Positions 6,175 through 24,830 of a DNA stretch of 24,830 nucleotides are shown here, in pieces (within the stretch, counting starts at the first letter, position 1; every line of letters begins with the position of its first letter). Position numbers and translations under genes: made by a program. The notes beneath the pieces are model-generated. The model saw only the letters and a list, made by a program, of their open reading frames with translations, did no database searches and was not told the origin of the DNA. The DNA comes from a virus. The stretch covers positions 1-24,830 of the IMG/VR virus record IMGVR_UViG_3300025102_006903; one strand, given 5' to 3'.

Positions 6175-6204
6175 CAAACAATCAACATTTCTTTCCTATG
6201 ATAA

Positions 6205-6902: not shown

Positions 6903-7179
6903 GATGTGCTTTAAGTTCAGGATTTGGTTGTGATCCGGTAAAATCTCTGCGTGATTGATTTTTGATGACGATGAAAGCATCTTTATTATACTTTCTGGTT
7001 CCAAGAGGTGACTGCCACTTCTTGTTGTACTCCTCACCAACATCAATACCAGAGACAGATGTTCCACCGATTTCTACATCGATTTCATCTTCCGGTTCCC
7101 ATCCTAGTTTATTGATAGCTCTTGCTATTTGGTTCACAAGAGTATCTTCATACTCTTCAGGATCAAGTTTACCAATCAT
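6889..7179 (-). CDS. Hypothetical protein in ferredoxin operon
   Basis: This 96-aa acidic protein has a clear N-terminal helix (EEYEDTLVNQIARAINKLGW), an acidic strand region (DEIDVEIGGTSVSGIDVG) and a C-terminal basic segment (KNQSRRDFTG). There are no cysteines, membrane segments or signal peptide. Its ATG shares one base with the ferredoxin stop (TGATG), so the two are made from one transcript and probably coupled. No family is recognised. It could be a partner of ferredoxin, but nothing in the sequence shows this directly. Confidence 0.6.
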   Translation of the reverse strand: MIGKLDPEEYEDTLVNQIARAINKLGWEPEDEIDVEIGGTSVSGIDVGEEYNKKWQSPLGTRKYNKDAFIVIKNQSRRDFTGSQPNPELKAHHAES

Positions 7180-7472
7180 CAGTAGAGATTCTCCTCTTGT
7201 TCTGTTTCAATTAAGCAGTCCGAAGTCGGATACGCAACACATGTTAGCACAAATCCGTCTTCGATTTGATCATCATCTAAAAATGATTGATCTTCCTGAT
7301 TCACTGTGCCTGAAATAACTTTGCCTGCACATGAAGAACAGGCACCAGCACGACATGAATAGTTCATATCTACTCCTTGCTCCTCAGCAGCATCTAAGAT
7401 GTACTGATCGGGTTCGCAGGTGACAGTGGTTTCTGTACCATCGGGAGTTCTGAGAGTGATATTATATGACAT
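7179..7472 (-). CDS. petF: Plant-type [2Fe-2S] ferredoxin
   Basis: This 97-aa soluble electron carrier has the length of cyanobacterial ferredoxin I. The cluster ligands are all present: C40, C45 and C48 in [13 protein letters not shown] and C78 in VLTCVAYP. The acidic surface expected for docking to reductases is kept ([19 protein letters not shown]). Cyanophage ferredoxins are known to accept electrons from host photosystem I and pass them to host or phage reductases; no phage bilin reductase is visible in this window. It is the first gene of a six-gene operon behind a strong sigma70-type promoter, so early expression by host polymerase is likely. Confidence 0.95.
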
Positions 7473-7494
7473 TCGGTTTTCTATAGAAAGTTTA

Positions 7495-7523
7495 AGTATA
7501 TAGAATTTTTGTTACCCTGTCAA
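7495..7523 (-). promoter_or_regulatory. Sigma70-type promoter of the ferredoxin operon
   Basis: TTGACA (7523-7518), a 17-nt spacer and TATACT (7500-7495) stand 23 nt upstream of the ferredoxin ATG. The -35 box lies within an imperfect inverted repeat at 7515-7540 (CCCTG ... CAGGG arms) that could be an operator. The GTTACCCTGTCAAGT block (7511-7525) is shared exactly with the promoter at the left end of the window. Confidence 0.8.
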
Positions 7524-7541
7524 GTATAACTTTGTCAGGGA

Positions 7542-7760
7542 TCAAATACCGAACGCACCGAAGAAGAAAAGACTGCCGGTTGTGGCATAAGAAAGAATCG
7601 CAGCCACAAATCCAATCATTGCGGTACGACCATTAAGTTTCTCTGCCTTCTCAGCATAGGTCTCATAACCGTAACGCTCTGCTGCAGTCTTGTCAATATA
7701 CATGCGTGGTTCTGTAGCCCACATATTCATTTGTCCTTGGTCATTGCTCGTTACGGTCAT
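7542..7760 (-). CDS. hli: High-light-inducible protein, long form
   Basis: This 72-aa Hli has an N-terminal soluble extension of about 35 residues and a C-terminal helix with the ExxNGRxAMxG signature (EKLNGRTAMIG, residues about 40-50), followed by FVAAILSYATTGSLFFF. The conserved Glu and Asn ligand the central Mg of chlorophylls in this family, and the Arg forms the stabilising ion pair. The protein would sit in the host thylakoid and protect photosystem II during infection. It has its own near-consensus promoter 27 nt upstream of the ATG and is not part of the ferredoxin operon, so the two Hlis are separately controlled. Confidence 0.93.
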   Translation of the reverse strand: MTVTSNDQGQMNMWATEPRMYIDKTAAERYGYETYAEKAEKLNGRTAMIGFVAAILSYATTGSLFFFGAFGI

Positions 7761-11017: not shown

Positions 11018-11706
11018 TTTATTATAATAGAATTGACTAGTTTATTTCTAATTTCTGGATTATCCCAACTAATATTATATTGACTAAGATGATATTTTAC
11101 CAAACTTTCTCCAACAAATTGTTTCCAACCATCTTGCCTGTACTTTTCAAAATTATCATATATTGACGAATAAATATCCATATTTTTTGATGAAGAGATT
11201 GCTAAATCACTATTCGGAGAATCTCTCATGGCATAACAATTCACGTAATCCATAGACAAATTATACAAATCAATATCAAATCTAATTATGTCAACATCAA
11301 ATCTACATCTGATAACAATATCATATGAAAAATTATTTTCTCTTTCATATTGCATTTTCAATTGATTAGATCTTTGTATGGAAAAAAACATACTATGAAC
11401 ATTGGATGGTCTTGCTAGTTCATAATTAACATCATTAAAAGGGTTGAAAATAATTTGAGGTTCATACAAAAATACTACTGGATTATAAAATTTTTTAATT
11501 AAATCTATAGTATCTTCTCTCCAGTGATATGTTCTACCATATGATAATGTTGCGGGTAATTCCATTTTTTTATTTGACATGGAATTGTCCCACCAGGTAT
11601 GCACAAAAACTTCTGGTGAATATTTTTGTAAAATATTTTTATCAATTTGTGCATAACCCTCTTCAAGATATCTTGGTTGTCCGGAAATGCAGAGTGCTAC
11701 TTTCAT
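11014..11706 (-). CDS. Putative glycosyltransferase-like protein, SGQPR family
   Basis: This 230-aa protein starts with KVALCISGQPRYLEEG and contains EVFVHTWWD and an R-x-R-x-D stretch (IRCRFDVD, 132-139). This pattern is seen in uncharacterised proteins of polysaccharide clusters and is likely a GT-A-like fold. It is a distant paralogue of the gene at 14848-15606, which shares SGR-IR at the start and the central 'QYE.ENNF.YD...R.R.D' block. The RFDVD could bind metal and nucleotide-sugar. No membrane segment is present. It is coupled by 4-base overlaps to both neighbours. The enzymatic role is inferred from context. Confidence 0.6.
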   Translation of the reverse strand: MKVALCISGQPRYLEEGYAQIDKNILQKYSPEVFVHTWWDNSMSNKKMELPATLSYGRTYHWREDTIDLIKKFYNPVVFLYEPQIIFNPFNDVNYELARPSNVHSMFFSIQRSNQLKMQYERENNFSYDIVIRCRFDVDIIRFDIDLYNLSMDYVNCYAMRDSPNSDLAISSSKNMDIYSSIYDNFEKYRQDGWKQFVGESLVKYHLSQYNISWDNPEIRNKLVNSIIIK

Positions 11707-12155
11707 TTTAAATTACTAACATAATCACTACAGACAGCATAACAATCAGTTGCTTTTAATACATCCCAACTAATATTACATTCTTCTGGCATGACAATAA
11801 CTGTTGATGAGGTGTAAGTTTTTCCAGGATAAGACCATATATGTCCATGACTAGTCATAGTATAATCATCATTTTGATGCCAAAAATAATTGAAATTTGT
11901 TCTGGTCATAAAATCTAATGTATCGATGTCTTTACAATGAATCCAAAGATGTTGAGACATTTTTGCCAATTTAAAAAATGAGATGACATTTTTTGGTCTA
12001 TCATGTCCTAACCAGAACGTTTGAGATACTACATCATATCTTAAATCAATTTCTACATTATAACCATTTTTTATACATTTGTCAATCTGCTCAATAGTAT
12101 TTTCATCGTCTACATTAGGTCCGTTTATATTACCACGATGTGCAATTAGTTTCAT
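11703..12155 (-). CDS. Compact GDPD-like (glycerophosphodiesterase-like) protein
   Basis: This 150-aa protein begins like a glycerophosphodiester phosphodiesterase: LIAHRGN with H6, R7 and G8, then ENTIEQIDKCIKNGYNVEIDLR with E35 and D37 for metal, and GHD with H51 as possible second catalytic His. WIHCKD near 71-76 and YAVCSDY near the C-terminus also fit a TIM-barrel of this family. It is far shorter than the usual 230-250 residues, so some barrel strands are missing. No signal peptide is present. It sits between a cupin and a glycosyltransferase in a sugar-nucleotide module. It may act on a phosphodiester-linked sugar or polyol in the glycan, or have lost activity. Confidence 0.65.
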   Translation of the reverse strand: MKLIAHRGNINGPNVDDENTIEQIDKCIKNGYNVEIDLRYDVVSQTFWLGHDRPKNVISFFKLAKMSQHLWIHCKDIDTLDFMTRTNFNYFWHQNDDYTMTSHGHIWSYPGKTYTSSTVIVMPEECNISWDVLKATDCYAVCSDYVSNLK

Positions 12156-12472
12156 GCTGAATACTTATCAGAAGGAATAGATGGCCATCTTACAATAATT
12201 AATTCAGAATCTGCAAGGAACTCAACATTAGAAATTTCATTCGGTTCATAAATCCACATATCTCCCGCCTTAAGATGTTTACCAGAAACCATAAGTTCTC
12301 CCGACACAATGTAATTTAATTCATTAGTCACTTTATGGAAGTGAGGAAATGTTTCACAACCCTTCTCATGTTTATGATGAGCAACTTCAAAAAATGGATT
12401 TTTAAAAATGGATGGATTGAAGTCTCCTACAAACCACCCTGCTTTAAAGTTTGAAATATTTGCTTCTATCAC
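12152..12472 (-). CDS. Cupin-domain protein
   Basis: This 106-aa single-domain cupin has first-motif residues in FPHFHKVTNELNYIVSGE (H44, H46, E51), followed by the conserved VSGE...G turn and a LKAGDMWIYEPNE second half. The metal-binding His/Glu set appears mostly intact. Cupins of this size in polysaccharide clusters may be sugar isomerases or epimerases, ligand sensors or metal enzymes. The HxH motif alone does not separate these. It overlaps the nucleotidyltransferase-RpiB fusion by 4 bases, so a role in the same sugar pathway is likely. Confidence 0.75.
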   Translation of the reverse strand: MIEANISNFKAGWFVGDFNPSIFKNPFFEVAHHKHEKGCETFPHFHKVTNELNYIVSGELMVSGKHLKAGDMWIYEPNEISNVEFLADSELIIVRWPSIPSDKYSA

Positions 12473-13626
12473 TTCTCCAACTCCTGGATGCGAATTTGAT
12501 GACGACCACCATCAAAAGTATTTGAGGAACAAATTTTAATGTAATTATCTAATACATCATAATTCACATCCTTTGCAGGAATTGCAAAGAAATTAGCACA
12601 GTTATGACGTATTGCCATTTCCATAGAAAACTCATCATAAACAAGTGCAGAACGAATACCCCTATTCTTATTGGCACAAATATTAACTCCCTGTCCAGTA
12701 CGACAGAATCCAAAACCATAGTCACAGTCCCTTTCACCAATAGATTTAACTGCCTGTGCAATGTAATCTCGATAATCACAATCCTTATTCAATATAGTTC
12801 CAAAATCAATGTATTCTAAATTATGTTTATCTAATACTTGTTTGAATGTTTCTTTTGCATCAAATCCAGAATGATCAGAACAAATGGCAATAGGTTTATC
12901 ACCAATACGACGAGTGACATTGTCTTTATAAAAATGGAATTCGTCGGGAGTTCCAAAGACATGCATCTTGTCCACAGGTTCAGTCAAAATCTTTTTACCA
13001 TCCTCAATGAGAAGATTGTAAAGGGGTGAAATGTAAAACTCATTTTTAGTTCTCAAATCACGTTCAATCATTTCTCTAGCATACTTGCAGAAATCAGATC
13101 CTTTCTTGAATCCATATATTCCTACACATGCATTGTTACTGATTGCTTTCTTCTCAGCAGTTTCAGTCACATATCCATCTTGATTGACCTTTGCATAACT
13201 ATAATTTGATGAATTAGATTTAAATGTTAGTAGCAATCCATCACCATTCAAATCATTCATTGTATGTGGATTAAATACTGGTCCAAATTCAATATCTAAA
13301 GTATGAATTACTAATGGTGCATCATTATCGATGAACTCTTCGGCATATAAACAACTACATACAGATCCATCAGTTAGTTCATCTAAAACTACAACTTTAA
13401 TGTCGTCACCAAACTTCTTACGCAGAAGTTCATCCATATGAAAATTATATACAGTCTCGTCCCTAACTACAAAAATAAAATTGCAACCTTCATAATTTAA
13501 ACAATCTAAAGAAATATCAATAAGATGTCTATCTTTAATATTGATCAATTGTTTTGGGACTTTAAATCCTTCTTTGATAAATCGACTTCCCAATCCTGCC
13601 ATGGGAATAAGAATATTTGGTTTCAT
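12469..13626 (-). CDS. Fusion of sugar nucleotidyltransferase and RpiB-type isomerase
   Basis: This 385-aa protein joins two enzymes. Residues 1-240 are an NTP-transferase domain: PMAGLGSRF at 8-16 is the nucleotide-binding loop, VPKQL at 23-27 carries the conserved Lys, and HTLDIEF at 108-114 sits where the metal-binding Asp is expected. Residues about 243-385 are an RpiB/LacAB-type sugar-phosphate isomerase: ICSDHSGFDAK (248-258), FCRTGQG with C308 as likely base, ANKNRGIRSALVYD and RHNCANFFAI. RpiB enzymes interconvert ribose-5-P and ribulose-5-P or allose-6-P and allulose-6-P. The fusion suggests first and last steps of one activated-sugar pathway, with the kinase and phosphatase genes just upstream. 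Substrate unknown. Confidence 0.85.
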   Translation of the reverse strand: MKPNILIPMAGLGSRFIKEGFKVPKQLINIKDRHLIDISLDCLNYEGCNFIFVVRDETVYNFHMDELLRKKFGDDIKVVVLDELTDGSVCSCLYAEEFIDNDAPLVIHTLDIEFGPVFNPHTMNDLNGDGLLLTFKSNSSNYSYAKVNQDGYVTETAEKKAISNNACVGIYGFKKGSDFCKYAREMIERDLRTKNEFYISPLYNLLIEDGKKILTEPVDKMHVFGTPDEFHFYKDNVTRRIGDKPIAICSDHSGFDAKETFKQVLDKHNLEYIDFGTILNKDCDYRDYIAQAVKSIGERDCDYGFGFCRTGQGVNICANKNRGIRSALVYDEFSMEMAIRHNCANFFAIPAKDVNYDVLDNYIKICSSNTFDGGRHQIRIQELEK

Positions 13627-13628
13627 AT

Positions 13629-14306
13629 TTACTTGCCAATAATTTCAGTTGTTGCTAAATGTGAAAATTCAATCCATTCGTGGATATCACCCTCTTTCCC
13701 TAATAATTTATACAGAAAACATGAGGCAAATATATCACCCGCACCAAGAACATTTACATCCTTCAACATCAGTTCTTTTGGTAGTTTATAGAAGAACTCT
13801 TCCTCTCCATTAGACACCACACTTCCAGATGCACTATGGAGAATCACCCATCCTTTTGTAACAGAAGCAAGATATGAGAGATCACAATCTATGTCTTCGT
13901 CGGAGATAAACAAATAATCAACATAGTTTAGAAGATCTTTATTTACACTATTGCTAATACTTTTACCTGGACAAATATCAGCAGTAATAATACCACCCAA
14001 ACCAGGAATAAAATCATGAAGGGTCATTTCATTCAAGTAAATTAAGTGGTTGATTTTAGAATCAATCATCTTGACCGGATGTTGAACGAGACTCAGATTC
14101 ACTTTTGAATATCTTTTTGCCGCAGGTTTATCAACATAGATAAGAGCTTGACCAACATCAATAGGAGATAATCCAATATCAATTGTTGGATCAATCTCAA
14201 GTAATGCTTTCCAGACATTTGCCATTGATCCTAGAGTTTTCTTTTCAGTATCACCATCGGTGATGGTATCAATAGTCAGATGTCCGTAAAGAGCAATGTC
14301 CTTCAT
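13629..14306 (-). CDS. PfkB/ribokinase-family sugar kinase
   Basis: This 225-aa protein has the PfkB family C-terminal signature VNVLGAGDIFASCF, with GAGD at 188-191 and D191 as catalytic base, and an N-terminal ALYGHLTIDTI strand-loop that fits the family start. The chain is shorter than the usual 300, with much of the lid and middle region reduced. It would phosphorylate a sugar or sugar-phosphate in the cytoplasm, as the kinase half of HldE does in ADP-heptose synthesis. It lies between the KdsC-like phosphatase (1-base overlap) and the nucleotidyltransferase-isomerase fusion (2-nt gap), making one compact module. Confidence 0.82.
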   Translation of the reverse strand: MKDIALYGHLTIDTITDGDTEKKTLGSMANVWKALLEIDPTIDIGLSPIDVGQALIYVDKPAAKRYSKVNLSLVQHPVKMIDSKINHLIYLNEMTLHDFIPGLGGIITADICPGKSISNSVNKDLLNYVDYLFISDEDIDCDLSYLASVTKGWVILHSASGSVVSNGEEEFFYKLPKELMLKDVNVLGAGDIFASCFLYKLLGKEGDIHEWIEFSHLATTEIIGK

Positions 14307-14845
14307 TAAAATTTTTCCTTCAAGTCAAGTTCATAGATCTTGTCTATCACTTTATCATAAGAGAAGCAAGGAAGCAACCCATCTATCTCAAATGTATCAA
14401 AGAGTGTCATAACTACATTTTCACCACCCCTAACCGGTAAAACTTTTGCCGTTTGCTTAACAATCCTTGGAGAATCTAACATACAAACAGGATATCTTAC
14501 CTTCTTCATGATACCAATATCAAAGAGATCATCACCGACATATGCAGTTTCTTTCTCTGTGCAATCATACTGCTTCAGGATATCATCAAGATAATTTGCT
14601 TTATCACTATGGAATCCTGATCCACGATTAGCAATAACATGCAAGTTTCTGTTCTCAAGGATACTGACATTATATGGATCACCAGTCAAAAATACAACAT
14701 TAACTCCGATTGCACGGAATCGTTTAATTGCAGTCCAGTCCTTATCACAAAAAGTTTTAAGTTTAACTGTTCCTTCACGGTCATAATATTTGATGCCATC
14801 AGTCATGACACCATCAACGTCAAGAATTAAAAGTTTAATTTTCAT
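14306..14845 (-). CDS. KdsC-like HAD phosphatase
   Basis: This 179-aa cap-less HAD phosphatase of the KdsC type has motif I LILDVDGVMTDG with D9 and D11, motif II FLTGD, a conserved Lys near KANYLDDI, and motif IV YVGDDLFDIGIM. KdsC hydrolyses KDO-8-phosphate and relatives act on sialic acid or other sugar phosphates. Here no KdsA, KdsB or NeuB is visible, so a role inside the sugar module with the kinase and the nucleotidyltransferase-RpiB fusion is more likely. I chose the ATG at 14845 over a TTG two codons upstream. It is 2 nt from the previous stop and overlaps the kinase start by one base. Confidence 0.85.
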   Translation of the reverse strand: MKIKLLILDVDGVMTDGIKYYDREGTVKLKTFCDKDWTAIKRFRAIGVNVVFLTGDPYNVSILENRNLHVIANRGSGFHSDKANYLDDILKQYDCTEKETAYVGDDLFDIGIMKKVRYPVCMLDSPRIVKQTAKVLPVRGGENVVMTLFDTFEIDGLLPCFSYDKVIDKIYELDLKEKF

Positions 14846-14847
14846 AT

Positions 14848-15606
14848 TCAATCAAAAGCAAAAGATCTGTAATTGGCTCTATACGCCAATTCTGTAGTTA
14901 TATTTGGTGCTAATACGTTAGTTTTTACAGAACCAATATCTATTTCATCTGGATACTCACATTCAACAGGAGATTCTGTAGGAATAACATCAACACCAAT
15001 GTCATTTAAATATATTCCAAGTAAAGATTCTGGATGAGGATTTCCAGTATGCATTGTGGGAGTTTTATGAACATACTTAGATATGTTTTTAAATAAATTA
15101 GCATACTTGGACATTGAAACACTTGTTCCCATACCAATAATATCACTTTTCCCTAAAGGATGAACTTGCGTAAAATTCCATCTAGAAGGAATCATAACAC
15201 AATTATCATTCATTTCTTCTAAATTTAAATCAATACTTTCCAATGTCCTAAGAAAAAACCAATCTGGTCTTAATCTAAAGACATAATCATACTTAAAATT
15301 ATTTTCTTCTTCATATTGTTCTCTCAATCTATTTGCATTGTAAATATTACACCACATTTTAGATATGGGTCCACCAAATTTATATTCAGTGTCTAAGTGA
15401 TCATAATAATCATGCTCATTGATAATTAGTTTTTTTGGTTTATACAACCTATCAAATTCCAATAGATTTTTATCTCGTCCATTTCTGTTTGGAGATCCAA
15501 AAAAGAAGGTATCAACTTCATAGATATCAAAAAAATTTTTCTTGAAGTATGGAAAAGTATCTTCAAAATTCCTAATTCTTCCAGAAAAACATGCAGCAAT
15601 TTTCAT
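14848..15606 (-). CDS. Putative glycosyltransferase-like protein, SGRIR paralogue
   Basis: This 252-aa protein starts MKIAACFSGRIRNFEDTFPYF, with YDYVFRLRPDWFF at 106-118 as a candidate metal/nucleotide site. It is a distant paralogue of the gene at 11014-11706, with the same opening and the same central 'QYEEENNFKYD' block. The C-terminal half has HTGNPHPESLLGIYL, where the Glu may be catalytic as in bilobed GT-A enzymes. No membrane helix or signal peptide is present. It overlaps the upstream fucosyltransferase by 4 bases. Enzyme class is inferred from fold-like features and gene context. Confidence 0.6.
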   Translation of the reverse strand: MKIAACFSGRIRNFEDTFPYFKKNFFDIYEVDTFFFGSPNRNGRDKNLLEFDRLYKPKKLIINEHDYYDHLDTEYKFGGPISKMWCNIYNANRLREQYEEENNFKYDYVFRLRPDWFFLRTLESIDLNLEEMNDNCVMIPSRWNFTQVHPLGKSDIIGMGTSVSMSKYANLFKNISKYVHKTPTMHTGNPHPESLLGIYLNDIGVDVIPTESPVECEYPDEIDIGSVKTNVLAPNITTELAYRANYRSFAFD

Positions 15607-16466
15607 GTTAAGACTCCAGTCATTTGTTCGAATACACCTTCTAAAGTAGGTCTCTTTTCAAATAAAGGTTCTTTAAGAATAGATTGATAAAGGTTATTGT
15701 CATTATCTATCTTAACAATATCCTCCAACATAGATTCCATATCAGAATAATCACTTAAATTTAAAAAACCTTTTGTATTGAAGTCTCTATGACATTCCGT
15801 ATCGGAATAATAAATTGGAATGTTACCTGCTATCTTTGCATGTAATAGTTTTTCGGTATACCATCCACCAGGAGCAGCGTTTTCAAAACAAATTGAAAAC
15901 TTATAATTAGAAATTACTTCCATCTTTTCAAGTTCTCCAGCATGACTATTGTTTTGAGGAATTTGCATCTTGTGACACTTCCCATAACAATCAACATCCT
16001 TATATCGGTTGACCATATCTATCATATCAATTCTATTTTGATATGGTACACTAAAAACTGTACTACAAAATTTAGTTTTTTCTCTTAAGGCAAATGAATT
16101 TTCTTCAGTAAAATAATCAACAGGTATCAACCATCCAGGATTACCCCATGTTCCGGTATTGAACCAATCAACATAAAACATCCATAAAGGAATTCTAATG
16201 TTTTTAGAATCATATGAGTCAAAGAAACTAGTAATAGAATAATCACATTCATTAAAGTTTGGTCTTGGAGAACTCTCTCCATTAAAAAATATTTTTATAC
16301 AATCATTATATGATCTATGTGATTGTCCAAAAATATTATAGATTAAGCAATCACAATCTTCAGGATTACTAACAGATATGTCTTCAAATAATTCCTTGAA
16401 TAAAAATGTTATAAGGTTATGATTATAATCAAACCCTGGCCAAAAGTCAGCAAAAGAAATTTTCAT
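15603..16466 (-). CDS. Fucosyltransferase, GT10 family
   Basis: This 287-aa protein matches the alpha-1,3/1,4-fucosyltransferase family GT10. The GT10 core begins with STVFSVPYQNRIDMIDMVNR (135-154) and the 'YKDVDCYGKC' turn (155-164). YKFSICFENAAPGGWYTEK (188-206) is the GDP-fucose-binding signature, with E195 and the final YTEK. GNIPIYYSD (214-222) follows. The family moves L-fucose from GDP-fucose to GlcNAc or Glc of a glycan. It pairs with gmd and the fucose-synthase-like gene in the same operon, so the phage could make and use its own donor. A related deoxysugar such as colitose is possible. It is cytoplasmic, with no membrane segment. Confidence 0.88.
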   Translation of the reverse strand: MKISFADFWPGFDYNHNLITFLFKELFEDISVSNPEDCDCLIYNIFGQSHRSYNDCIKIFFNGESSPRPNFNECDYSITSFFDSYDSKNIRIPLWMFYVDWFNTGTWGNPGWLIPVDYFTEENSFALREKTKFCSTVFSVPYQNRIDMIDMVNRYKDVDCYGKCHKMQIPQNNSHAGELEKMEVISNYKFSICFENAAPGGWYTEKLLHAKIAGNIPIYYSDTECHRDFNTKGFLNLSDYSDMESMLEDIVKIDNDNNLYQSILKEPLFEKRPTLEGVFEQMTGVLT

Positions 16467-16468
16467 AA

Positions 16469-17095
16469 TCAGTTTTGTATAGTTGTTTTAAATTCGGGAC
16501 TTTGTATCGCAAGTGCTGGTTCGAACCAATAATTGTTTAAATTAAATTTTTCTATTAGTAAATTGAAAAAGAAGTCTGCTCCAGTGTTACAATATTTGAG
16601 TTCTGATAAAACTTTTTTTGCACCACTATTACTTATCGCATATGCATGAGTACATCTGGATCCATTGACCCTATAGACTCTCTTACCTTCAGATGTTGGT
16701 GCGTGTAATTCACAGCATGTTCCTACCCATGCAATATCCCAATCATCAGGAAGTTGATTATAAGATTGGGAAAATTCCTCTACAAAGTTATCACATAAAA
16801 TTACATCGTCCTCAAGAACCAAAGCATATTCATACTTTTTTGCAACTTCACGAATAATTTTTACATGTTTTAAGGAGAGAGATATTTCGGAAGGTTTTAG
16901 TTTTCTACCATAACCCTTTACCACTTCAAATATTTTTGGGAAATCACTTTTGATTTTTTCTTCGGACCATGTGTCTTTATCATAGTCACAAACAAATTCA
17001 TAATCAAAAATATTTTCTTCAGATAAAACCTTAATAAGTTCTTCTTTTCTATCAGTCAATTTGTCCCAATGACAAATGAAAATTTTATCAATCAT
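16469..17095 (-). CDS. Glycosyltransferase family 25 (LPS-type)
   Basis: This 208-aa protein resembles GT25 enzymes, which add galactose or glucose to lipooligosaccharide. It shows the opening IFICHWDKLTDRKEEL, GEISL-like 'KPSEISLSLKHVKI' at 67-80, ALVLEDDVIL with the EDD metal site at 95-97, and WDIAWVGTCC with AYAIS further on. I chose the ATG at 17095, overlapping the previous gene by 8 bases. A TTG four codons upstream gives a less likely start. The chain fits the short phage and Haemophilus type of this family. The exact sugar is unknown. Confidence 0.82.
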   Translation of the reverse strand: MIDKIFICHWDKLTDRKEELIKVLSEENIFDYEFVCDYDKDTWSEEKIKSDFPKIFEVVKGYGRKLKPSEISLSLKHVKIIREVAKKYEYALVLEDDVILCDNFVEEFSQSYNQLPDDWDIAWVGTCCELHAPTSEGKRVYRVNGSRCTHAYAISNSGAKKVLSELKYCNTGADFFFNLLIEKFNLNNYWFEPALAIQSPEFKTTIQN

Positions 17096-17711
17096 TTTTT
17101 TTGACAAAGAAAAGACCTCTAAGATTAAAATGATTATCTTTATATTGTGAATTATACTCTAACGCATCTTTATATGCAACTTTTCTTAGTTCTTTGGTAA
17201 TTTGCTCATCATACTCAAAACCATATCTCTTGAGATTTTCAATCCAATATTCTTTTGGTTGACAATTTACATGATGATGTCCCGGTTGTCCTGGTTCTGC
17301 ATATGTAATTGCAAGATGCTTTGCATAAGCAAATACTTCCAAGAAATTATCCCTATACTCTTCATTGACATGCTCTACGAATTCACAAGACCAACAAAGA
17401 TCATATCTATCTTCTGTTTCTAAAGTTCCTACAGAAAAATCATGATAAAAAATTTGATCCGTAAAAAGAGAATTTTCTACAACATACTTAGATCCATCAA
17501 CACCAACTACCTCATCACAATGTTTATTGAACTCTTCAATGGCATGACCCATTCCACATCCAACATCTAAAACTGTCTTAATATTAAATTTTTTACAAAG
17601 ATATTCCCACAAGTGTGGAGTATATGTTGCTGGATCTTTTTCAATTATAAATCCACCAACATGACCTTCGTTGACCATAGTGAGGTCATCGGTAATATGC
17701 ATCAAATCCAT
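17088..17711 (-). CDS. Class I SAM-dependent methyltransferase
   Basis: This 207-aa protein has the SAM-binding loop TVLDVGCGMG at 46-55, an acidic residue ending strand 2 (VVGVDGS), and DLCWSCEFVEHV as motif after strand 4. The C-terminal half contains GQPGHHHVNCQPKEYWIENL, a feature of the Methyltransf_11/23 type seen in sugar and lipid methylases. It is the second methyltransferase in the operon and unrelated to the FkbM gene, which suggests two different methyl decorations. The start overlaps the upstream stop by one base. Confidence 0.85.
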   Translation of the reverse strand: MDLMHITDDLTMVNEGHVGGFIIEKDPATYTPHLWEYLCKKFNIKTVLDVGCGMGHAIEEFNKHCDEVVGVDGSKYVVENSLFTDQIFYHDFSVGTLETEDRYDLCWSCEFVEHVNEEYRDNFLEVFAYAKHLAITYAEPGQPGHHHVNCQPKEYWIENLKRYGFEYDEQITKELRKVAYKDALEYNSQYKDNHFNLRGLFFVKKND

Positions 17712-18463
17712 TAGTTAAACCACTCCTTTCTCCATTGTTGACCGCCAGCAAAATGACGAATAATTACATCATCTCTATTTACCTTGTTAATTAAGAACTG
17801 GCAATTAGATTCTCCTTCCATCTCTGTAACGTTCCACGTTGTTGGAAGAACCTCTACATGTTCATGTAGTTCATCCAAAGAATATTCTGTCCATTCGGTT
17901 TTATCCGAATGCCATCCATAGTCTGGCAGGTTCCAAAAAGGTTTATCAGAGTGTCTCTTGATACCTGCAAGAGAATACCAAGATGCCTGTTCCCTAAACT
18001 CATGCCAAAAACTATTTACATAACCAAACCTTTCATGTCTAGACATAGCATCATTGAGAGTCCGATATCTATCTTCAGAAAGAATGTTATCAACTAACTT
18101 TCTAGACCATTCATTGACCTTGATAGAATAGTTACCCATACAATGAGTATTTCCAGAGTCAATAGAATATGAAAAAGATTTGTTTGTTTGATACAGTTCG
18201 TCAATATTTGCGATGCACATGTCGGCATCTAAATGTGTAACGATATCTCCATCAGTTACATATCCTTCCTCAAGCATTTGCTCAAGAATAGTAAACTTTA
18301 ACCAAGTATAATTTCCACGATACTTGTAAAGATTATCCTTAAGTTCAAGATACTCAAATCCATGCTTATCAGCATATTCTTGATTCCTTGGGGACATGTA
18401 AGTATCAAAGAATTGTTGTCTTTGGTCCGCATAAGAACCAAAGACTAAAAGAACTTTTTTCAT
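17711..18463 (-). CDS. GT-A glycosyltransferase, GT34-like
   Basis: This 250-aa protein begins with a Rossmann-like strand (KKVLLVFGSYADQR). WLKFTILEQML (54-64) and THLDADMCIANIDEL (76-90) follow, where D79-x-D81 is the metal-binding D-x-D. CMGNYSIKVNEWS and WHEFREQASWY fit the later acceptor-side motifs of galactosyltransferase-like (GT34) enzymes. VIIRHFAGGQQWRKEW at the C-terminus supplies the usual final His. Two reading frames overlap at each end by 1-4 bases. The sugar transferred is not readable; galactose or xylose are family precedents. Confidence 0.72.
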   Translation of the reverse strand: MKKVLLVFGSYADQRQQFFDTYMSPRNQEYADKHGFEYLELKDNLYKYRGNYTWLKFTILEQMLEEGYVTDGDIVTHLDADMCIANIDELYQTNKSFSYSIDSGNTHCMGNYSIKVNEWSRKLVDNILSEDRYRTLNDAMSRHERFGYVNSFWHEFREQASWYSLAGIKRHSDKPFWNLPDYGWHSDKTEWTEYSLDELHEHVEVLPTTWNVTEMEGESNCQFLINKVNRDDVIIRHFAGGQQWRKEWFN

Positions 18464-19371
18464 GTATCTTTTCCAGTTAAAACATATTCAACAATATTAT
18501 TTGTAGTAAAACACTCCATGACTTTATTATACCCATTTTCAGCTATTTTTTCTCTTTCACTATCATTGTTCAAATAGTAGTTTATTTTTTCAAGAGCTTC
18601 TTCTTTTGTCGAATAAAAAACTATCTCATGATCTTCTTTAAAAATTTTATCTAGTTGTTTTGATTCTGATATTCTATCAGTAATGACCATCTTTTTACAA
18701 GACATTCCTTCAAAAATTCTTCTAGTAACTTCACCCCATCTTGCTTTTTGAAATACTATTTTACCATTTCTATACAAATCTCCATTCTCAATGTCTTTTA
18801 AATTATTTTTTAGATAAAAAGAATCTCCAAGATTTTCTTGCAAATATGAAACAACTTCTCCACGATTGCCATACATAGAAGTCACAACATCAAAAGGAGT
18901 ATAACTTGTCAGTGATGGATAAAATATTTTAGGATCAGTCCAATGTGATGTAAAAATACAATCATATCCCATCGATTTATATTGTAAATAACATTCAACA
19001 TCTGGAGTAAGTATTAAATCAGCATTTTCAGTTCTTTGCACGTTGTAATGAAATGTTTGTGGTTCGTCTCCACAATCAACAACCAACTTACTCTTTGGAA
19101 AAGTTTCTTTATTAAAATACTTATCACAATCTGCTGGTCCACAAGACATATAAAGAATAATATCTGGAACAAAATTTCCAGAATCATAATCTTTTTTTAA
19201 CTCCAACATTCCATAAGAATCTCCTCTTGGAACTGGATATTGTCTAATTTCAGTGACAGTAGGATTATCTACAAAAGCATCGTACACTCCTTTCGGAGTT
19301 GACCAGTATCTTTCTTTACCAAATTTATGATATTCTTCAATAGAATATCCAGAAATCATAGCTACTTTCAT
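18460..19371 (-). CDS. CgeB-like GT-B glycosyltransferase
   Basis: This 303-aa protein fits the CgeB/spore-protein type of group 1 transferases. It has an N-terminal domain with DIILYMSCGPAD (70-81) and VVDCGDEPQTF (97-107), and a donor domain with ARWGEVTRRIFEGMSC (210-225), KKMVITDRIS and the distal EIVFYSTKEEALEKINYYL. The RRIFEGMSC segment is the nucleotide-sugar-binding helix of this group. The end, 'REKIAENGYNKVMECFT', is also typical. Operon neighbours overlap by 1 and 4 bases. It probably adds a hexose to the growing glycan. Confidence 0.8.
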   Translation of the reverse strand: MKVAMISGYSIEEYHKFGKERYWSTPKGVYDAFVDNPTVTEIRQYPVPRGDSYGMLELKKDYDSGNFVPDIILYMSCGPADCDKYFNKETFPKSKLVVDCGDEPQTFHYNVQRTENADLILTPDVECYLQYKSMGYDCIFTSHWTDPKIFYPSLTSYTPFDVVTSMYGNRGEVVSYLQENLGDSFYLKNNLKDIENGDLYRNGKIVFQKARWGEVTRRIFEGMSCKKMVITDRISESKQLDKIFKEDHEIVFYSTKEEALEKINYYLNNDSEREKIAENGYNKVMECFTTNNIVEYVLTGKDT

Positions 19372-20225
19372 TAAACCCTCTTAATAATGTTCTCAAAGAC
19401 ACCTTGAAGTGAAAAGTAATCTTGATAGAGTTCCTTACCCTTCTTTAACATCTCATTGTATGTATCGTCAGAAATACTCTTCAAAATATCGTAAGTATTT
19501 CTAATATTGTCCTCATCAATTATAACACAGAATTCTTCCCAATCCAATTCATCAGACCAAGGAAGTGCATGATCATCAGAAATATAAACAGGAACAGTAT
19601 TCAATTGAAAGGACTCATAAAGTCTGAAACTTGTAGTTCCATAACCTCTAGGACATAGAGAAAACTTAGAAGCAGACATAACATCAAGGAAGTTATTTAA
19701 TTTTTCTTCTCCAACATTAATATCCCAGTTTCCTGCCTTAACAAGACAATCATCTTTATCACGGAATGCCTTTACCATATCAGTTCTTACCCAATAAGTA
19801 TTAGAACCAATAAAGGAAGCAAAGTATTTGTGCTCTCTTTGAGGTACGTTAGGAATAGAAGAACACACTAATGGAATAGGAATTACATTTCCCTTCTTAC
19901 GATTACCACCTGCACAGAAAATCATGGTATCTTCAGGAAAATCTTCAAAAGGACCATCATCCTGCTGACAAATGGTAAAGTAAGACCCATCAGAACTCAA
20001 AGTTTCATAGAGCAAATTTTGAAGATCTGGATAAGGTTGTCCACCCCAGATACGATTACAAAAAAGATTTGACCAGAAGATATCAATATATTCTCTTTCA
20101 GGTTTATCTTTTAACTGTTGATAGTGACTATAAAAATACTCCTCAAGATATTCTCCTTGATGATATGGAGGATATGTTGGTGTAAGAGACTTTGGTCTCA
20201 AATAATTTTCTTTCAAATAAACCAT
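19371..20225 (-). CDS. Exostosin-like glycosyltransferase (GT47-type)
   Basis: This 284-aa protein carries the exostosin domain signature near its C-terminus, SASKFSLCPRGYGTTSFRLYE (about 184-204). This continues into FQLNTVPVYISDDHALPW, with the Arg and Glu that contact the donor UDP-sugar. FASFIGSNTYWVRTDM and DFSL-like spacing further upstream fit too. Exostosins in eukaryotes build heparan backbones; bacterial and phage relatives act in surface polysaccharides. There is no signal anchor, so it acts in the cytoplasm. It overlaps the upstream gene by 13 bases, the longest overlap of the operon. Confidence 0.83.
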   Translation of the reverse strand: MVYLKENYLRPKSLTPTYPPYHQGEYLEEYFYSHYQQLKDKPEREYIDIFWSNLFCNRIWGGQPYPDLQNLLYETLSSDGSYFTICQQDDGPFEDFPEDTMIFCAGGNRKKGNVIPIPLVCSSIPNVPQREHKYFASFIGSNTYWVRTDMVKAFRDKDDCLVKAGNWDINVGEEKLNNFLDVMSASKFSLCPRGYGTTSFRLYESFQLNTVPVYISDDHALPWSDELDWEEFCVIIDEDNIRNTYDILKSISDDTYNEMLKKGKELYQDYFSLQGVFENIIKRV

Positions 20226-20884
20226 AGTCCTTCCTCCTTAAACTTATCGATTTTGGTTTCTACACCAACCATCCAATTATTATGAACAATCATAGCATTT
20301 TCTTTTTTACCTTGCTGATAATATACATTACCGTTAGGAAATAAATCTTCAGATAGCAATGCTACATTATCATTATACTTTGTAAGTCCAATACGATTCA
20401 TGATAAGTTGATCATCATCAGAATCATCGGCACCACACTCTTCTACCAATTGACGACATTCGGGAGTCTCATTAAATACCATAAATCCAGTGCAGATTGT
20501 AGACCCAGGAGCATCAGTTTGAAATAATACTTCTTCATGACCAGTAAGAATTTCTACAGGATTTTCTTTAAATACAATATCAGTATCAACCCACATTAGG
20601 TTGGGATGTTCTTTATGTACTTGATTAATAATTTTCCATTTGTGTCGAACTACATTTCTAAATCCACTATTACTATCAAAAGTCCAATCTTGGTATTCTC
20701 TTAGGTTACTATTCATATAGAGAAAAGCACCTTTATATCCTTCAAGAATTAAAGATCTATAAACTTCCTCATCCATACAAGCAATAATAAAGTCATCCAT
20801 ATTAATGCCCACTTTTTCAGCAGACTTCAACATATTCAGACAAATATCATGGCATCCATAATTTAAGAAAGTTAGAAATTTCAT
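20213..20884 (-). CDS. Nucleotide-diphospho-sugar transferase, GT77-like
   Basis: This 223-aa protein resembles the Nucleotid_trans domain of GT77-type enzymes. MWVDTDIVF at 97-105 holds the D-x-D (D100, D102), STICTGFMVFN at 128-138 is the conserved core, DSDDDQLIMN supplies the DDQ motif, and MIVHNNWMVG near the C-terminus has the final His. The chain is short but complete for the fold. Members transfer galactose or arabinose with a divalent metal. It overlaps the fucose-synthase-like gene by 4 bases. Confidence 0.8.
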   Translation of the reverse strand: MKFLTFLNYGCHDICLNMLKSAEKVGINMDDFIIACMDEEVYRSLILEGYKGAFLYMNSNLREYQDWTFDSNSGFRNVVRHKWKIINQVHKEHPNLMWVDTDIVFKENPVEILTGHEEVLFQTDAPGSTICTGFMVFNETPECRQLVEECGADDSDDDQLIMNRIGLTKYNDNVALLSEDLFPNGNVYYQQGKKENAMIVHNNWMVGVETKIDKFKEEGLWFI

Positions 20885-21831
20885 TGATCTTTATACCATT
20901 CGTAAGTTGATTTAATACCCTCTTTCAAATCAATCTTTGGTTCCCATCCAAGAGATTTAATTTTAGTTACATCCAAAAGTTTTCTTGGTGTTCCATTTGG
21001 TTTAGAAGTATCCCATGTTGTTTTACCAGGATATTCCACAATACCAGAAATCATATTTGAAAGTTCTTTGATTGTAATATCTTCACCAGTTCCCACATTG
21101 ATAATATCAGGATCATTATAATCCCTCATACAAGTATAACATGCTTCAGCAAGATCATCAACATGAAGAAATTCTCTCCTTGCTGAACCATCACCCCATA
21201 GTTCTACATCTGGCCACCAAGGACCTCCCATATCAACACTATAACCATCAGTTGTAGCATGATGATATTTTGCAATCATCGCAGGAAGAACATGCGAACT
21301 TTCTAAATCAAAATTATCATTTGGACCATATAAATTTGTAGGCATCAAAGAGATAGCATTAAATCCATATTGTTGATGATATGCCTGACACATCTTGATA
21401 CCAGCAATCTTTGCAATAGCATAAGAATCATTACTAGGTTCAAGAGGACCACTCATTAAATACTCTTCTCTAATAGGTTGTTCACATAATTTTGGATAAA
21501 TGCAGGAAGAACCAAGAAACAAAAGTTTTTTAACACCAAATTTGCGAGCAGCATGAATAATGTTTGATTGAATCATCAAATTATCATAGATGAAGTGTCC
21601 GGGATAATTCTTATTAGCACCAATACCACCCACCTTTGCAGCAGCAAGATAAACATACTCAGGTTCATTGATTTGAAAAAACCTTTCAACATCTTCCTGA
21701 CGACGTAAATCCCAATGAGAAGATGGTGATGAAAGAATATTAGTATATCCTTTCCAATGAAGCATACGAATAATTGCTGACCCTACAAGTCCAGTATTAC
21801 CAGCAACATAAATTTTAGATTCAATATTCAT
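20881..21831 (-). CDS. fcl: GDP-L-fucose synthase-like epimerase/reductase
   Basis: This 316-aa short-chain dehydrogenase acts as GDP-4-keto-6-deoxymannose 3,5-epimerase/4-reductase, giving GDP-L-fucose with NADPH. The nucleotide loop is AGNTGLVG (10-17). LAAAKVGGIGAN (62-73) is a fucose-synthase hallmark, GSSCIYP holds S108/S109, Y137-x3-K141 is the catalytic pair, and H180 in ESSHVLP is the second acid. Length equals WcaG/Fcl (about 320). With gmd in the same operon it completes GDP-fucose synthesis from GDP-mannose. A ColD-like gene lies between, so it might also, or instead, act as the ColC-type reductase on the 3-deoxy intermediate. Confidence 0.9.
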   Translation of the reverse strand: MNIESKIYVAGNTGLVGSAIIRMLHWKGYTNILSSPSSHWDLRRQEDVERFFQINEPEYVYLAAAKVGGIGANKNYPGHFIYDNLMIQSNIIHAARKFGVKKLLFLGSSCIYPKLCEQPIREEYLMSGPLEPSNDSYAIAKIAGIKMCQAYHQQYGFNAISLMPTNLYGPNDNFDLESSHVLPAMIAKYHHATTDGYSVDMGGPWWPDVELWGDGSARREFLHVDDLAEACYTCMRDYNDPDIINVGTGEDITIKELSNMISGIVEYPGKTTWDTSKPNGTPRKLLDVTKIKSLGWEPKIDLKEGIKSTYEWYKDQ

Positions 21832-22994
21832 AATTTCTCCAAAATAAATTCAAGTAATTTAATTTCTTTGTCTCCAATAAAATGATTATTACCTAGATAA
21901 ACCCCATTATCATGTACAAAATCAACATTCAGTTTTTCTTTTTGAGTATCAATATTATAATTTTTTAAAAATGGTTGTCTTAAAAGATTGCCACCAATAA
22001 TAGGTCTGTGTTCAATAGCATTTTCATCAAATTCTTTTTTCAAAAAATGTGAAGTCTTTTTATCTTTACATAATAATGGAAAACAAAAATTACTTATGCC
22101 ATCATGATACTCTGGAACTACAAACTTTTCTGAGTATTTTTTTATGAGAGATATGAACTTAGAATAGTTTGCATTCCTCCTCTCAATATACTTATCAAGT
22201 CTTTTCAATTGAGACATTCCCAGTACAGCACATAACTCTGTGTTTCTAAAGTTATATCCATCAGTTACAAACATAAACTGTTTAGATATCTGCGGATACT
22301 TATCAACATATTGTTGAAATCTTTCAGACTCCCTTGCCAATCCATGAGATCTTTTTATCCTCATCAGATCATACAGGTCATAATTATTAGTAGAAATCAT
22401 TCCACCTTCAATTGTTGATATGTGATGTCCAAAATAAAAACTGAATGTAGAACCTAAAGAATCAGATCCTACTTTTGCACTGTCAGAATCTTTACATCCA
22501 TGAGACTCACATACATCATCTAAAAGTATTGCATTGGGAAAAAGTTTAGAATACTTATCTCTATTTGCAGGATATCCTATGAGATGTGTGATAAAAATAA
22601 GTTTTATATCAGGATGTTTTTTTGCAATATATTCCAAATCCTCTTCACAAAAACTAAAGTTTTGAAGATTGATGTCACAAAAAATGGGAGTAAATCCCAA
22701 TTGAATTACTGGTCCAACATTTGTTACCCATGTATCCGCAGGCACTAAAACCTTATCCCCATCCTTCAATCCATATAGTTCTTTTATAGATGAAAGAAGA
22801 AGATAATTAGCAGTGCTTCCGGATGAAACATATAAAGAATACTTAGATCCTAACCAATTGTTCCATTCAGATTCAAACTTTCTAACCTTTGGACCATTAG
22901 TAAATCTATTTGAGAATAAACAAAAGGATGCCATTTTGACTCGATCAGATAATGTTAGATTATCTTTCATCAATGGCCATTTAATATCACTCAT
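21828..22994 (-). CDS. ColD-like PLP-dependent sugar 3-dehydratase (DegT fold)
   Basis: This 388-aa protein has the DegT/DnrJ/EryC1/StrS fold: [11 protein letters not shown] (55-65), VPADTWVTN (84-92) and [10 protein letters not shown] (157-166), where Asp binds the PLP ring nitrogen. At the place of the PLP-binding lysine it reads [14 protein letters not shown], so H190 replaces Lys. This His is the mark of C3-dehydratases such as ColD (GDP-4-keto-6-deoxy-D-mannose 3-dehydratase), which use PMP/PLP and glutamate to remove the 3-OH; it argues against a plain aminotransferase. ColD is similar in length. It lies directly between gmd, which makes the ColD substrate, and the reductase, as in colitose clusters. 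GDP-specificity is inferred from context. Confidence 0.85.
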
Positions 22995-23982
22995 GAATAC
23001 ACATGTCCTGAACTAATTGATTAAAAGAAATCTTAGGTTCCCAACCCAATTTTTCTTTTGCCTTGGTGGCATCACCTAATAAAGTTTCGACTTCAGCAGG
23101 TCTGAAATATTTAGAGTCAACTCTGATAACCGTTTCTCCATCAGAATTGATACCAACTTCATCAAGACCAGATCCCTCCCATCTGATGTTCATACCAAAA
23201 TATGGCGCACACTTTTCAACAAATCTACGAACTGAATATTGCTCTCCAGTGGCAATAACGAAGTCTTCTGGTTGTTCTTGCTGAAGCATTAACCACATTG
23301 CTTCAACATAATCTTTGGCATGACCCCAATCACGAAGTGCATCAAGATTGCCAAGATATAAACATTTTTGCTTACCTTCAGAAATTGCTCTGAGTGCTCT
23401 TGTGATTTTACGAGTCACAAAGGTTTCACCACGTCTTGGTGACTCATGATTGAACAGGATACCACTACAGGCATACATTCCATATGACTCACGGTAGTTC
23501 TTTACAATCCAATATCCATACAGTTTTGCTACACCATAAGGAGAACGTGGATAGAAAGGTGTGGTTTCTGTCTGCGGAATCTCCTGCACCTTACCATAGA
23601 GTTCACTGGTAGATGCTTGGTAAATACGAACTTTATCTTCCATACCCAGAAGACGAACTGCCTCCAGCACACGGAGAGTTCCCATAGCATCAGTTTGAGC
23701 AGTATATTCAGGCATTTCAAAGGATACCTTCACATGACTCTGAGCACCAAGATTATAAATCTCATCAGGTTGTACCTGCTGAATAACCCTAACCAAGTTT
23801 GTAGAGTCTGTCAAATCACCATAATGAAGTTTTAATTGATCATAAATGTGATCAATTCTATGTGTATTAATCAAAGAAGCACGACGTACAATACCATGAA
23901 CTTCATACCCATTTTCAATAAGAAGTTCTGCCAAGTATGAACCATCTTGCCCCGTAATTCCAGTAATTAGAGCAACTTTCAT
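22987..23982 (-). CDS. gmd: GDP-mannose 4,6-dehydratase
   Basis: This 331-aa protein converts GDP-D-mannose to GDP-4-keto-6-deoxy-D-mannose with tightly bound NADP. The nucleotide loop is [12 protein letters not shown] (6-17), RRAS and YGDLTDS (54-60) follow, [10 protein letters not shown] (121-130) gives the T125/E127 catalytic residues, and Y149-x3-K153 is in [26 protein letters not shown] and [17 protein letters not shown] are diagnostic of Gmd rather than of other dehydratases. It is the first gene of the 21-gene glycan operon, with the terminator-bearing leader immediately upstream. No GDP-mannose-making genes are present, so the host must supply substrate. Confidence 0.96.
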
Positions 23983-24002: not shown

Positions 24003-24031
24003 ATTATACTAAAAAAGGACGGTTTATGCAA
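24003..24031 (-). promoter_or_regulatory. Possible weak promoter before gmd
   Basis: TTGCAT (24031-24026), a 17-nt spacer and a consensus TATAAT (24008-24003) lie just before gmd. The -35 is poor and overlaps the terminator hairpin, so this could be chance in AT-rich DNA. Confidence 0.3.
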
Positions 24032-24040
24032 CCGTCCTTT
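24011..24040 (-). terminator. Intrinsic terminator/attenuator in the glycan operon leader
   Basis: An 11-bp perfect stem (AAAGGACGGTT at 24014-24024, AACCGTCCTTT at 24030-24040) with a 5-nt loop is followed on the minus strand by six T residues. It ends 28 nt before the gmd ATG, downstream of the structured leader. It would stop transcripts from the upstream small genes, or act as a regulated attenuator. Confidence 0.85.
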
Positions 24041-24210
24041 ATAGGTCTTGCCATGCACGCCACTTATTCTTTTACAGGAAATAAGAAACCTGGCGGGAGT
24101 TTCCTCCATCCGCACCACTTGCTCTTTGGGGAAGCAAGAAACCAAAGTAGGGTCTATGACTCCACCAGTACTGTTATAGTCCATCCGTGACTTTCAGGGG
24201 GATCCCGACC
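24041..24210 (-). ncRNA. Structured leader RNA with tandem covarying hairpins (candidate riboswitch-like element)
   Basis: There is no acceptable gene in this stretch of about 170 nt, but it is dense in hairpins. Two copies of a 29-31 nt element (24060-24090 and 24115-24143) share flanks CCACTT and AAGAAACC on the + strand. Their 6-bp stems differ in two base pairs in a compensated way (CTTGCT/AGCAAG versus CTTATT/AATAAG). Between them is a hairpin with a 3-nt bulge and a GAAA tetraloop on the minus strand (24093-24113). A longer imperfect stem lies at 24151-24182. It precedes a terminator and gmd. Position and company match the wcaG RNA motif known from cyanophages upstream of exopolysaccharide genes; the manA motif is an alternative. 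Membership is not verified. Confidence 0.6.
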
Positions 24211-24219
24211 AGGGCTAGT

Positions 24220-24474
24220 TTATCGACCTACCGAGTCTTTAACATAAGCAGGAACACCATCGGGGTCTAACCAACATGTATAATCATGATCTTCCATAGC
24301 AGTCATCAACTGCATTTCATTATCACAAAGATACATATCACGATAACGACCCGTGTATGAATCTACTTTTTGAATACGACAGTCTGGCATACCATTAGTT
24401 TCTAGTTTGCCAACTTGAATGTAACGATAAGGAAACCGTTCAAGGAGAACAGTTGGTTTCTTAGTCACTTTCAT
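24220..24474 (-). CDS. Hypothetical protein, 84 aa
   Basis: This 84-aa protein has a basic N-terminus (MKVTKKPTVLLERFPYRY) and a more acidic second half (DNEMQLMTAMEDHDYTCWLD). It has no recognised domain, membrane segment or signal peptide. I chose the ATG at 24474 rather than a TTG one codon earlier, because it overlaps the stop of the preceding gene by one base (TGATG). With that gene it forms a two-gene unit behind a strong early-type promoter. It is probably one of the many small early cyanophage proteins of unknown role. Read-through from it would enter the structured leader of the glycan operon. Confidence 0.65.
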   Translation of the reverse strand: MKVTKKPTVLLERFPYRYIQVGKLETNGMPDCRIQKVDSYTGRYRDMYLCDNEMQLMTAMEDHDYTCWLDPDGVPAYVKDSVGR

Positions 24475-24692
24475 CAAATAACCTCGACAGTTTCAAGATC
24501 TTGGACCAAGCAATCGACCAAGATTTCATAATCATCTAGTGGTTCTCCGGAGAATACCACTCCTTCTGATTCATAATATTTACGGACTTTTCTGTAAAGT
24601 TTCGGACTCTTTACATCAAGAAAAAAATCTCCATTTGACGCAGCACGAAGTGTGCTGATATCTTTGGTCTTGAATTTTTCAGTCAGTGCCAT
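24474..24692 (-). CDS. Hypothetical protein, 72 aa
   Basis: This 72-aa protein has a basic N-terminal half (KFKTKDISTLRAASNGDFFLDVKSP, then KLYRKVRKYY) and an acidic C-terminal half (EPLDDYEILVDCLVQDLETVEVI). No family is recognised. The ATG at 24692 lies 23 nt after the -10 box of a near-consensus promoter, with only a weak purine stretch as ribosome binding site. It is the first gene of a two-gene unit that runs toward the glycan operon, and early expression is likely. Confidence 0.65.
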   Translation of the reverse strand: MALTEKFKTKDISTLRAASNGDFFLDVKSPKLYRKVRKYYESEGVVFSGEPLDDYEILVDCLVQDLETVEVI

Positions 24693-24714: not shown

Positions 24715-24743
24715 ATTATAAGGTGTTATGAGTATGTAGTCAA
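24715..24743 (-). promoter_or_regulatory. Near-consensus sigma70-type promoter
   Basis: TTGACT (24743-24738), a 17-nt spacer and consensus TATAAT (24720-24715) precede the 72-aa gene. Hexamers and spacing match the other early-type promoters of the window. It is the nearest strong promoter upstream of the glycan operon. Confidence 0.8.
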
Positions 24744-24767: not shown

Positions 24768-24830
24768 TCGGGACGACAGGATTCGAACCTGCGACATCTC
24801 GCTCCCAAAGCGAGTGCTCTACCAAACTGA
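24768..24830 (-). tRNA. tRNA-Pro (anticodon TGG), 5' end cut by window
   Basis: The last 63 bases form most of a tRNA on the minus strand. The anticodon stem CTCGC/GCGAG holds a TTTGGGA loop with anticodon TGG (24807-24805). The T-arm is GCAGG-TTCGAAT-CCTGT, and the 3' acceptor strand CGTCCCG ends with A at 24768. The 3' CCA is not encoded. Part of the D-arm (AGTTTGGTAGAGC) is visible, while the 5' acceptor strand lies beyond the edge. Phage tRNAs usually offset codon bias against the host. Confidence 0.92.

Follow-up and report, generated by a model that had tools for sequence, protein, structure and literature searches.

Does the structured RNA encoded between a small phage gene and gmd belong to the operon that follows it or to the unit that it ends? 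The question arose from a window of 24,830 nucleotides of viral DNA (IMG/VR record IMGVR_UViG_3300025102_006903; the window is this whole stretch), in which two hairpins of the same design are encoded on the minus strand ahead of a block of glycan genes. Their stems (CUUGCUU/GAGCAAG, ~24138-24118, and CUUAUUU/GAAUAAG, ~24085-24063) start about 53 nt apart and differ by two compensated pairs (G-C to A-U and C-G to U-A), whereas the flanks GUUUC...AAAG...GUGG are conserved. A GAAA-capped hairpin stands between them, and an intrinsic terminator with a T-run separates the region from the gmd start codon at 23982. All these elements had been described in the initial annotation and were found again, as was the co-oriented block of 21 downstream ORFs; those tested are mostly sugar-nucleotide or transfer genes and include a GDP-mannose dehydratase, an aminotransferase, an epimerase, glycosyltransferases and a methyltransferase.

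The guess that the region may be a wcaG RNA proved right. An Rfam scan matched RF01761 (wcaG) over the full length of the model (positions 1-98) with 93.3 bits against a cut-off of 42 and an E-value of 4.3e-18 (1.9e-20 in a separate search), and the alignment at the window comprises two similar hairpins, the middle hairpin and the conserved segments GUGGUGCGGAUGG and GUGGCG. The manA RNA (RF01745), which had been named for the same covariance-model search, epsC/EAR and the other Rfam families gave nothing above cut-off at the array, only sub-threshold chance matches with E-values up to 10. By its sequence the window element belongs to wcaG, a candidate RNA family known since 2010, and the tandem arrangement taken to be possibly new is not novel, since both hairpins are already part of the Rfam consensus. 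Weinberg et al. (2010, PMC2864571) listed wcaG among the probable riboswitch candidates and placed it ahead of exopolysaccharide or high-light genes; Rfam gives its type as Cis-reg. The folding energy of the 98-nt wcaG, calculated without pseudoknots, is unremarkable (z -0.33), and folding energy was discarded as evidence for structure because the values (z -0.33 to -1.53) are uninformative.

The array in the window has the order B1-B2-A1-A2. The interval 24011-24210 originally assigned to the feature does hold the elements named, but its upper limit is too short: B1 and B2 extend the feature back to ~24237, across the stop codon of the upstream gene. Type A modules have the pattern GUUUC-stem-loop-stem-GUGG and type B modules the pattern AGUC-nYGGnnn-GACU-(A-rich)-CUGGUSGG; a type C module (UAGUCUUUGCCAAUAGACUUUAAACUAGAUGGU) was seen in annotated phages. 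Only type A is present in Rfam, and B modules had no Rfam match in the window or in five further loci scanned. Module number and type vary widely (13 arrangements), and 100 wcaG loci had two features beyond the Rfam model, extra upstream modules and a stereotyped downstream segment. By this comparison, wcaG forms the distal end of a longer chain built from type A and type B modules, with type C in relatives. Besides, an extra module (CCCCUUCCGUGUGGUUG...) was seen downstream of the two wcaG hairpins in several relatives (L021, L025, L026, L069, L070, L116, L126 and L131), often before tRNA-Gly.

Table 1 Features of the array and its surroundings in the window
Feature	Position	Strand	Basis and remarks
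Predicted sigma70-type promoter TTGACT-17-TATAAT	24715..24743	-	11/12 consensus match only; upstream of two small genes
Small ORF, phrog_552	24474..24692	-	Position of Syn9 gp205; family match and synteny
Small ORF, phrog_481	24220..24477	-	Matches Syn9 gp206; own stop codon inside module B1
Module B1	24203..24237	-	GAC-UCGGUAG-GUC-GAUAAAC-UAGCCCUGGUCGGG; spans stop codon of upstream ORF; B-module covariation
Module B2	24160..24192	-	AGUC-ACGGAUG-GACU-AUAACAGUACUGGUGGAGUCA; B-module covariation
wcaG RNA (RF01761), A1 and A2	24049..24146	-	Covariance-model match
Module A1, probable H-type pseudoknot	24110..24146	-	Flank UUUGG with loop CCAAA; stem CUUGCUU/GAGCAAG
Linking hairpin GGAG-GAAA-CUCC	24096..24107	-	Sequence and Rfam alignment
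Module A2, H-type pseudoknot	24051..24092	-	From covariation; flank CAGG with loop CCUG; stem CUUAUUU/GAAUAAG; conserved tail GUGGCGUGCAUG
Intrinsic terminator (11-bp stem, T-run)	24008..24040 (hairpin 24040-24014)	-	Prediction; position conserved in 84/100 loci
Predicted terminator-fused promoter	24003..24031	-	-35 variant TTGCAT (24031-24026) inside hairpin; 17-nt spacer; -10 TATAAT (24008-24003)
gmd, GDP-mannose 4,6-dehydratase	22987..23982	-	PF16363, E 2e-155; first gene of 21-gene glycan island (7829-23982)
hli (7542-7760) and ferredoxin (7179-7472)	7179..7760	-	After island

Relatives were collected by scanning IMG/VR with a 15-base motif core, to which further module patterns were added later, and about 200 of them were compared. 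In complete phages wcaG lies at a single locus (12/12; Syn1 has two adjoining matches there). A pattern scan of S-SM2 also gave one locus only, with the remaining matches near the shuffled level, and a generic element spread over the genome was therefore rejected. Module arrays stand at the same gene ends in phages that are absent from the wcaG matches, such as Syn9, ACG-2014a/d and S-RIM2, and the C module was found in 277 phage records, all named cyanobacterial phages, in one place each; P-HM2 and P-SSM2 had no clear module at the corresponding gene end. One pattern scan of cellular genomes gave 18 matches in unrelated taxa, none titled cyanobacterium. In S-CREM1, wcaG, manA and abiF all lie within ~0.9 kb (PMC9964418). 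One relative (L018:13624-13660) has an abiF RNA in the midst of its tRNAs, and a wcaG array is in that region too; in these phages the tRNA region has the appearance of a structured-RNA cluster.

The earlier claim of selection on RNA structure, to be checked by compensatory stem changes in related cyanophages, was borne out by strong covariation across the relatives and by the RF01761 match itself. Among unique terminal A modules of one geometry, the beginning of the loop can pair with the 4-nt flank in 62/63, in 9 different combinations, compared to a mean of 26.9 and a maximum of 38 with shuffled pairing and 0 after a slide by one column. In an alignment of 39 terminal A sequences, 99.8% of the cells are paired, both partners vary in 8 of the 11 pairs, and the score for covariation amounts to 0.627 (0.261 shuffled, ≤0.179 slid). 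Judged by this covariation, the terminal A module is an H-type pseudoknot. Covariation was weaker for A1 (112/138, shuffled mean 89, maximum 102). All 88 unique B-module sequences (88/88) allow a Watson-Crick pair between one loop base and a base before CUGG (70 C-G, 18 U-A), which we take as a lead because the pairing came from an exploratory search of all column pairs.

The upstream border of the arrays is equally regular. A coding stop lies within -10 to +29 nt of the first module in 168 of the 209 arrays with enough flanking sequence, and 9 abut the 3' end of a tRNA; first modules at an upstream stop codon or tRNA 3' end account for ~85% of the arrays, and several of those outside these classes start with module types outside the scan or are chance coding matches. 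Where the sequence before the array exceeds 2.5 kb, phrog_481 or phrog_552 precedes it on the same strand in 124 of 135 cases. A B-like module sits at the phrog_481 stop in 31/32 loci in which the array follows directly and in 53/109 in which another gene separates phrog_481 from the wcaG array, compared to 14 of 1802 stops of other genes on the same contigs. Since phrog_481 is widespread (461 phage records), these numbers tie the array to a locus and are no proof of a function with that protein. In L002, L033, L016 and similar loci, small genes (phrog_2318, a coiled-coil MSKYD family and an MTPYEL family) separate the module at the phrog_481 end from the wcaG array; the last codons of phrog_2318 contribute part of an A module arm. 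In the window, a tRNA cut by the window end (24768-24830; anticodon region UGG, proline) lies just upstream of the two small genes, and the predicted promoter that follows it is likely the start of the transcript ending in the array.

Downstream of the array the first feature is a tRNA in 32 cases and a gene in 166, all co-oriented, with one doubtful convergent case (L133). Convergent downstream genes had been considered as a means to tell a leader from a 3' UTR and were given up: the single doubtful case in ~199 makes the comparison uninformative because genes of these phages are mostly co-oriented. The downstream genes are mixed (glycan enzymes, 2OG oxygenases, CpeT, outer-membrane-like proteins); the most frequent class is that of glycan genes, with 104/159 of the downstream proteins similar to two reference glycan islands. 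The window has the order phrog_552, phrog_481, array, 21-gene island, hli, ferredoxin, and S-IOM18, S-RIM8 and Syn9 have the order gp205, gp206, gp207, array, with or without a tRNA, and hli, with gp205, gp206 and gp207 of S-IOM18 corresponding to phrog_552, phrog_481 and phrog_604. In island-less phages, genes related to hli/ferredoxin come next to the array or are separated from it by a tRNA or a small gene. On the simplest reading of these gene orders, glycan islands were inserted directly after the array, between it and hli-ferredoxin, and this would account for the association of wcaG with exopolysaccharide as well as high-light genes. After hli and ferredoxin the window encodes tail-fibre-like proteins (2158-6177 and 131-928), so probable host-recognition genes adjoin the glycan island.

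Between array and island, the terminator is a conserved companion: one lies within ~110 nt after the array in 84 of the 100 wcaG loci. In 72 of these 84, a -35-like hexamer in the hairpin is followed by a TATAAT-like hexamer (spacing 17 in 70), an arrangement found in 10/80 control terminators from the same contigs and S-SM2. In a larger set the spacer was 17 nt in 109/112; a run of 6 T is accompanied by 2 further bases (61 loci) and a run of 7 T by 1 (44 loci), so T-run and gap lengths compensate and the 17-nt spacing is kept. The fused arrangement occurred in 92/104 glycan-type loci and 17/55 others, counts that are not independent because the loci are related. A strict consensus scan omits the fused promoter because TTGCAT, the commonest -35 but a poor consensus match, agrees with TTGACA at only 3/6 positions; the call rests on conservation, and both promoters in the window are consensus predictions. 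As a sequence pattern, a terminator with the -35 in its arm or loop and its T-run inside a fixed 17-nt spacer is a compact terminator-promoter punctuation unit. It looks like a transcription-unit boundary at which the glycan operon starts after wcaG, and its frequency argues that gmd probably starts its own transcript there. Searches of the open literature on cyanophage transcriptomes gave no paper that maps transcript ends at this locus.

How far do these findings fit an RNA that acts on what comes after it? The initial annotation had seen a ligand- or protein-controlled attenuator, and a leader of the downstream operon that senses a ligand or protein and controls termination before gmd is also what the literature proposed (PMC2864571) and what the Rfam type implies. 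An intrinsic terminator indeed follows just after the array, as it would after an aptamer, and the prevalence of glycan genes downstream speaks for such a leader. Nevertheless, we consider it quite unlikely. The co-evolving alternative pairing expected of an attenuator was not found: terminator arms pair with their own arrays as well as with swapped ones (-9.61 and -9.48 kcal/mol), which gives no sign of a switch, and a 6-bp match in the window (GGAUGG/CCGUCC) was rejected as it does not co-evolve across loci. The array's position follows the upstream genes, arrays lie at the same spot in island-less phages, and tRNAs are directly downstream of some. At most glycan-type loci (92/104) the promoter-like element comes after wcaG. 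A riboswitch or attenuator as the mechanism of the window element is thus not supported by these comparisons. As regards the annotated role of wcaG as a 5'-UTR cis-regulator of exopolysaccharide or high-light genes, an annotation that lies outside the covariance model, a promoter-like element stands between wcaG and the next gene in 72 of the 84 terminator-bearing loci and tRNAs are frequent neighbours; such a role may nonetheless apply. Glycan genes being the commonest class after the array, a regulatory link may exist, and regulation of the glycan operon by read-through from the array is possible. Read-through is also the core of processive antitermination, as by HK022 put or Bacillus EAR, in which the element would carry transcription across the following terminator into the next genes; arrays directly before terminators and co-oriented downstream features would suit it, but cyanophage genes are mostly co-oriented in any case, read-through is not needed with promoters downstream, a terminator is lacking after several arrays and no match to epsC/EAR or any other Rfam family was obtained, so that we regard it as very improbable.

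With moderate confidence, we instead read the element as a 3'-UTR or gene-end pseudoknot array at one conserved cyanomyovirus locus, which closes the upstream unit and acts on the RNA that it ends. Location, modularity and pseudoknots of the array are established by sequence comparison; the overlap with the stop codon, the terminator and the promoter signals together point to the array as the 3' end of the upstream RNA. Starting across the phrog_481 stop codon, it would form the 3' untranslated end of a phrog_552-phrog_481 transcript closed by the terminator, and the glycan operon would be transcribed separately from the terminator-fused promoter. As a compact 3'-terminal barrier, the array may stabilise the upstream mRNA or let a stable RNA be released; stabilisation or release is our proposal for its function. 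Against the gene-end reading, in compact phage genomes any intergenic element is near an upstream stop, a terminator is missing from some arrays, which continue into a tRNA or the next gene, and one might expect a 3' stabiliser of general use to recur at many genes and not at one locus. The single locus per complete genome, the variable neighbours, the location among tRNAs, the vicinity of manA and abiF RNAs in S-CREM1 (PMC9964418) and the strong structural covariation would also suit a stable non-coding RNA gene, co-transcribed by chance with upstream genes or tRNAs, processed out and acting in trans or binding a protein, much like the stable RNAs C and D of the T4 tRNA cluster. Such a trans-acting processed RNA is a serious rival, although an unlikely one: module number and type are highly variable, inserted genes interrupt arrays, and an independent RNA gene would not usually overlap a stop codon, as the first modules do.

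More broadly, wcaG may be the part so far seen of a phage RNA class not yet described. Its exchangeable modules, some of them pseudoknots by covariation, would overlap stop codons, be carried by genes at one hypervariable cyanomyovirus locus, form 3' UTRs and affect the upstream RNA through its stability, its processing or the termination of translation; that wcaG became a riboswitch candidate would be a side effect of glycan islands landing after it. We put this forward tentatively, as close to an even chance. wcaG has been carried as a likely riboswitch candidate for 15 years, and later cyanophage papers repeat the regulation of exopolysaccharide and high-light genes without tests. If the gene-end array is real, searches for sugar-nucleotide ligands pursue a mistaken model, and culturable phages, e.g. 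S-SM2 or Syn9, would allow tests of a 3'-end RNA element that is widespread in phages.

Compared to wcaG as catalogued, the window element shares the full-length RF01761 match, the two hairpins with the middle hairpin, the cyanophage origin and the downstream glycan genes. However, the model covers the last two modules only, and the window unit adds upstream B modules without Rfam match; its hairpins pair, by covariation, as pseudoknots, whereas the Rfam structure line is nested and has none; and its position fits a 3' UTR, whereas wcaG is catalogued as a leader. The 3' UTR of tobamoviruses contains tandem pseudoknots in an upstream pseudoknot domain. Like the array, this domain consists of consecutive H-type pseudoknots after a stop codon, but the likeness concerns only how the two may work: virus and sequence are unrelated, and the array has no tRNA-like end, though real tRNAs follow some arrays. 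Closer in kind of phage, the tRNA cluster of T4 holds the stable RNAs C and D, for which we know of no role. The likeness lies in stable-RNA-like elements in the tRNA region of a T4-like phage; unlike RNAs C and D, the array is tied to protein genes at their stop codons.
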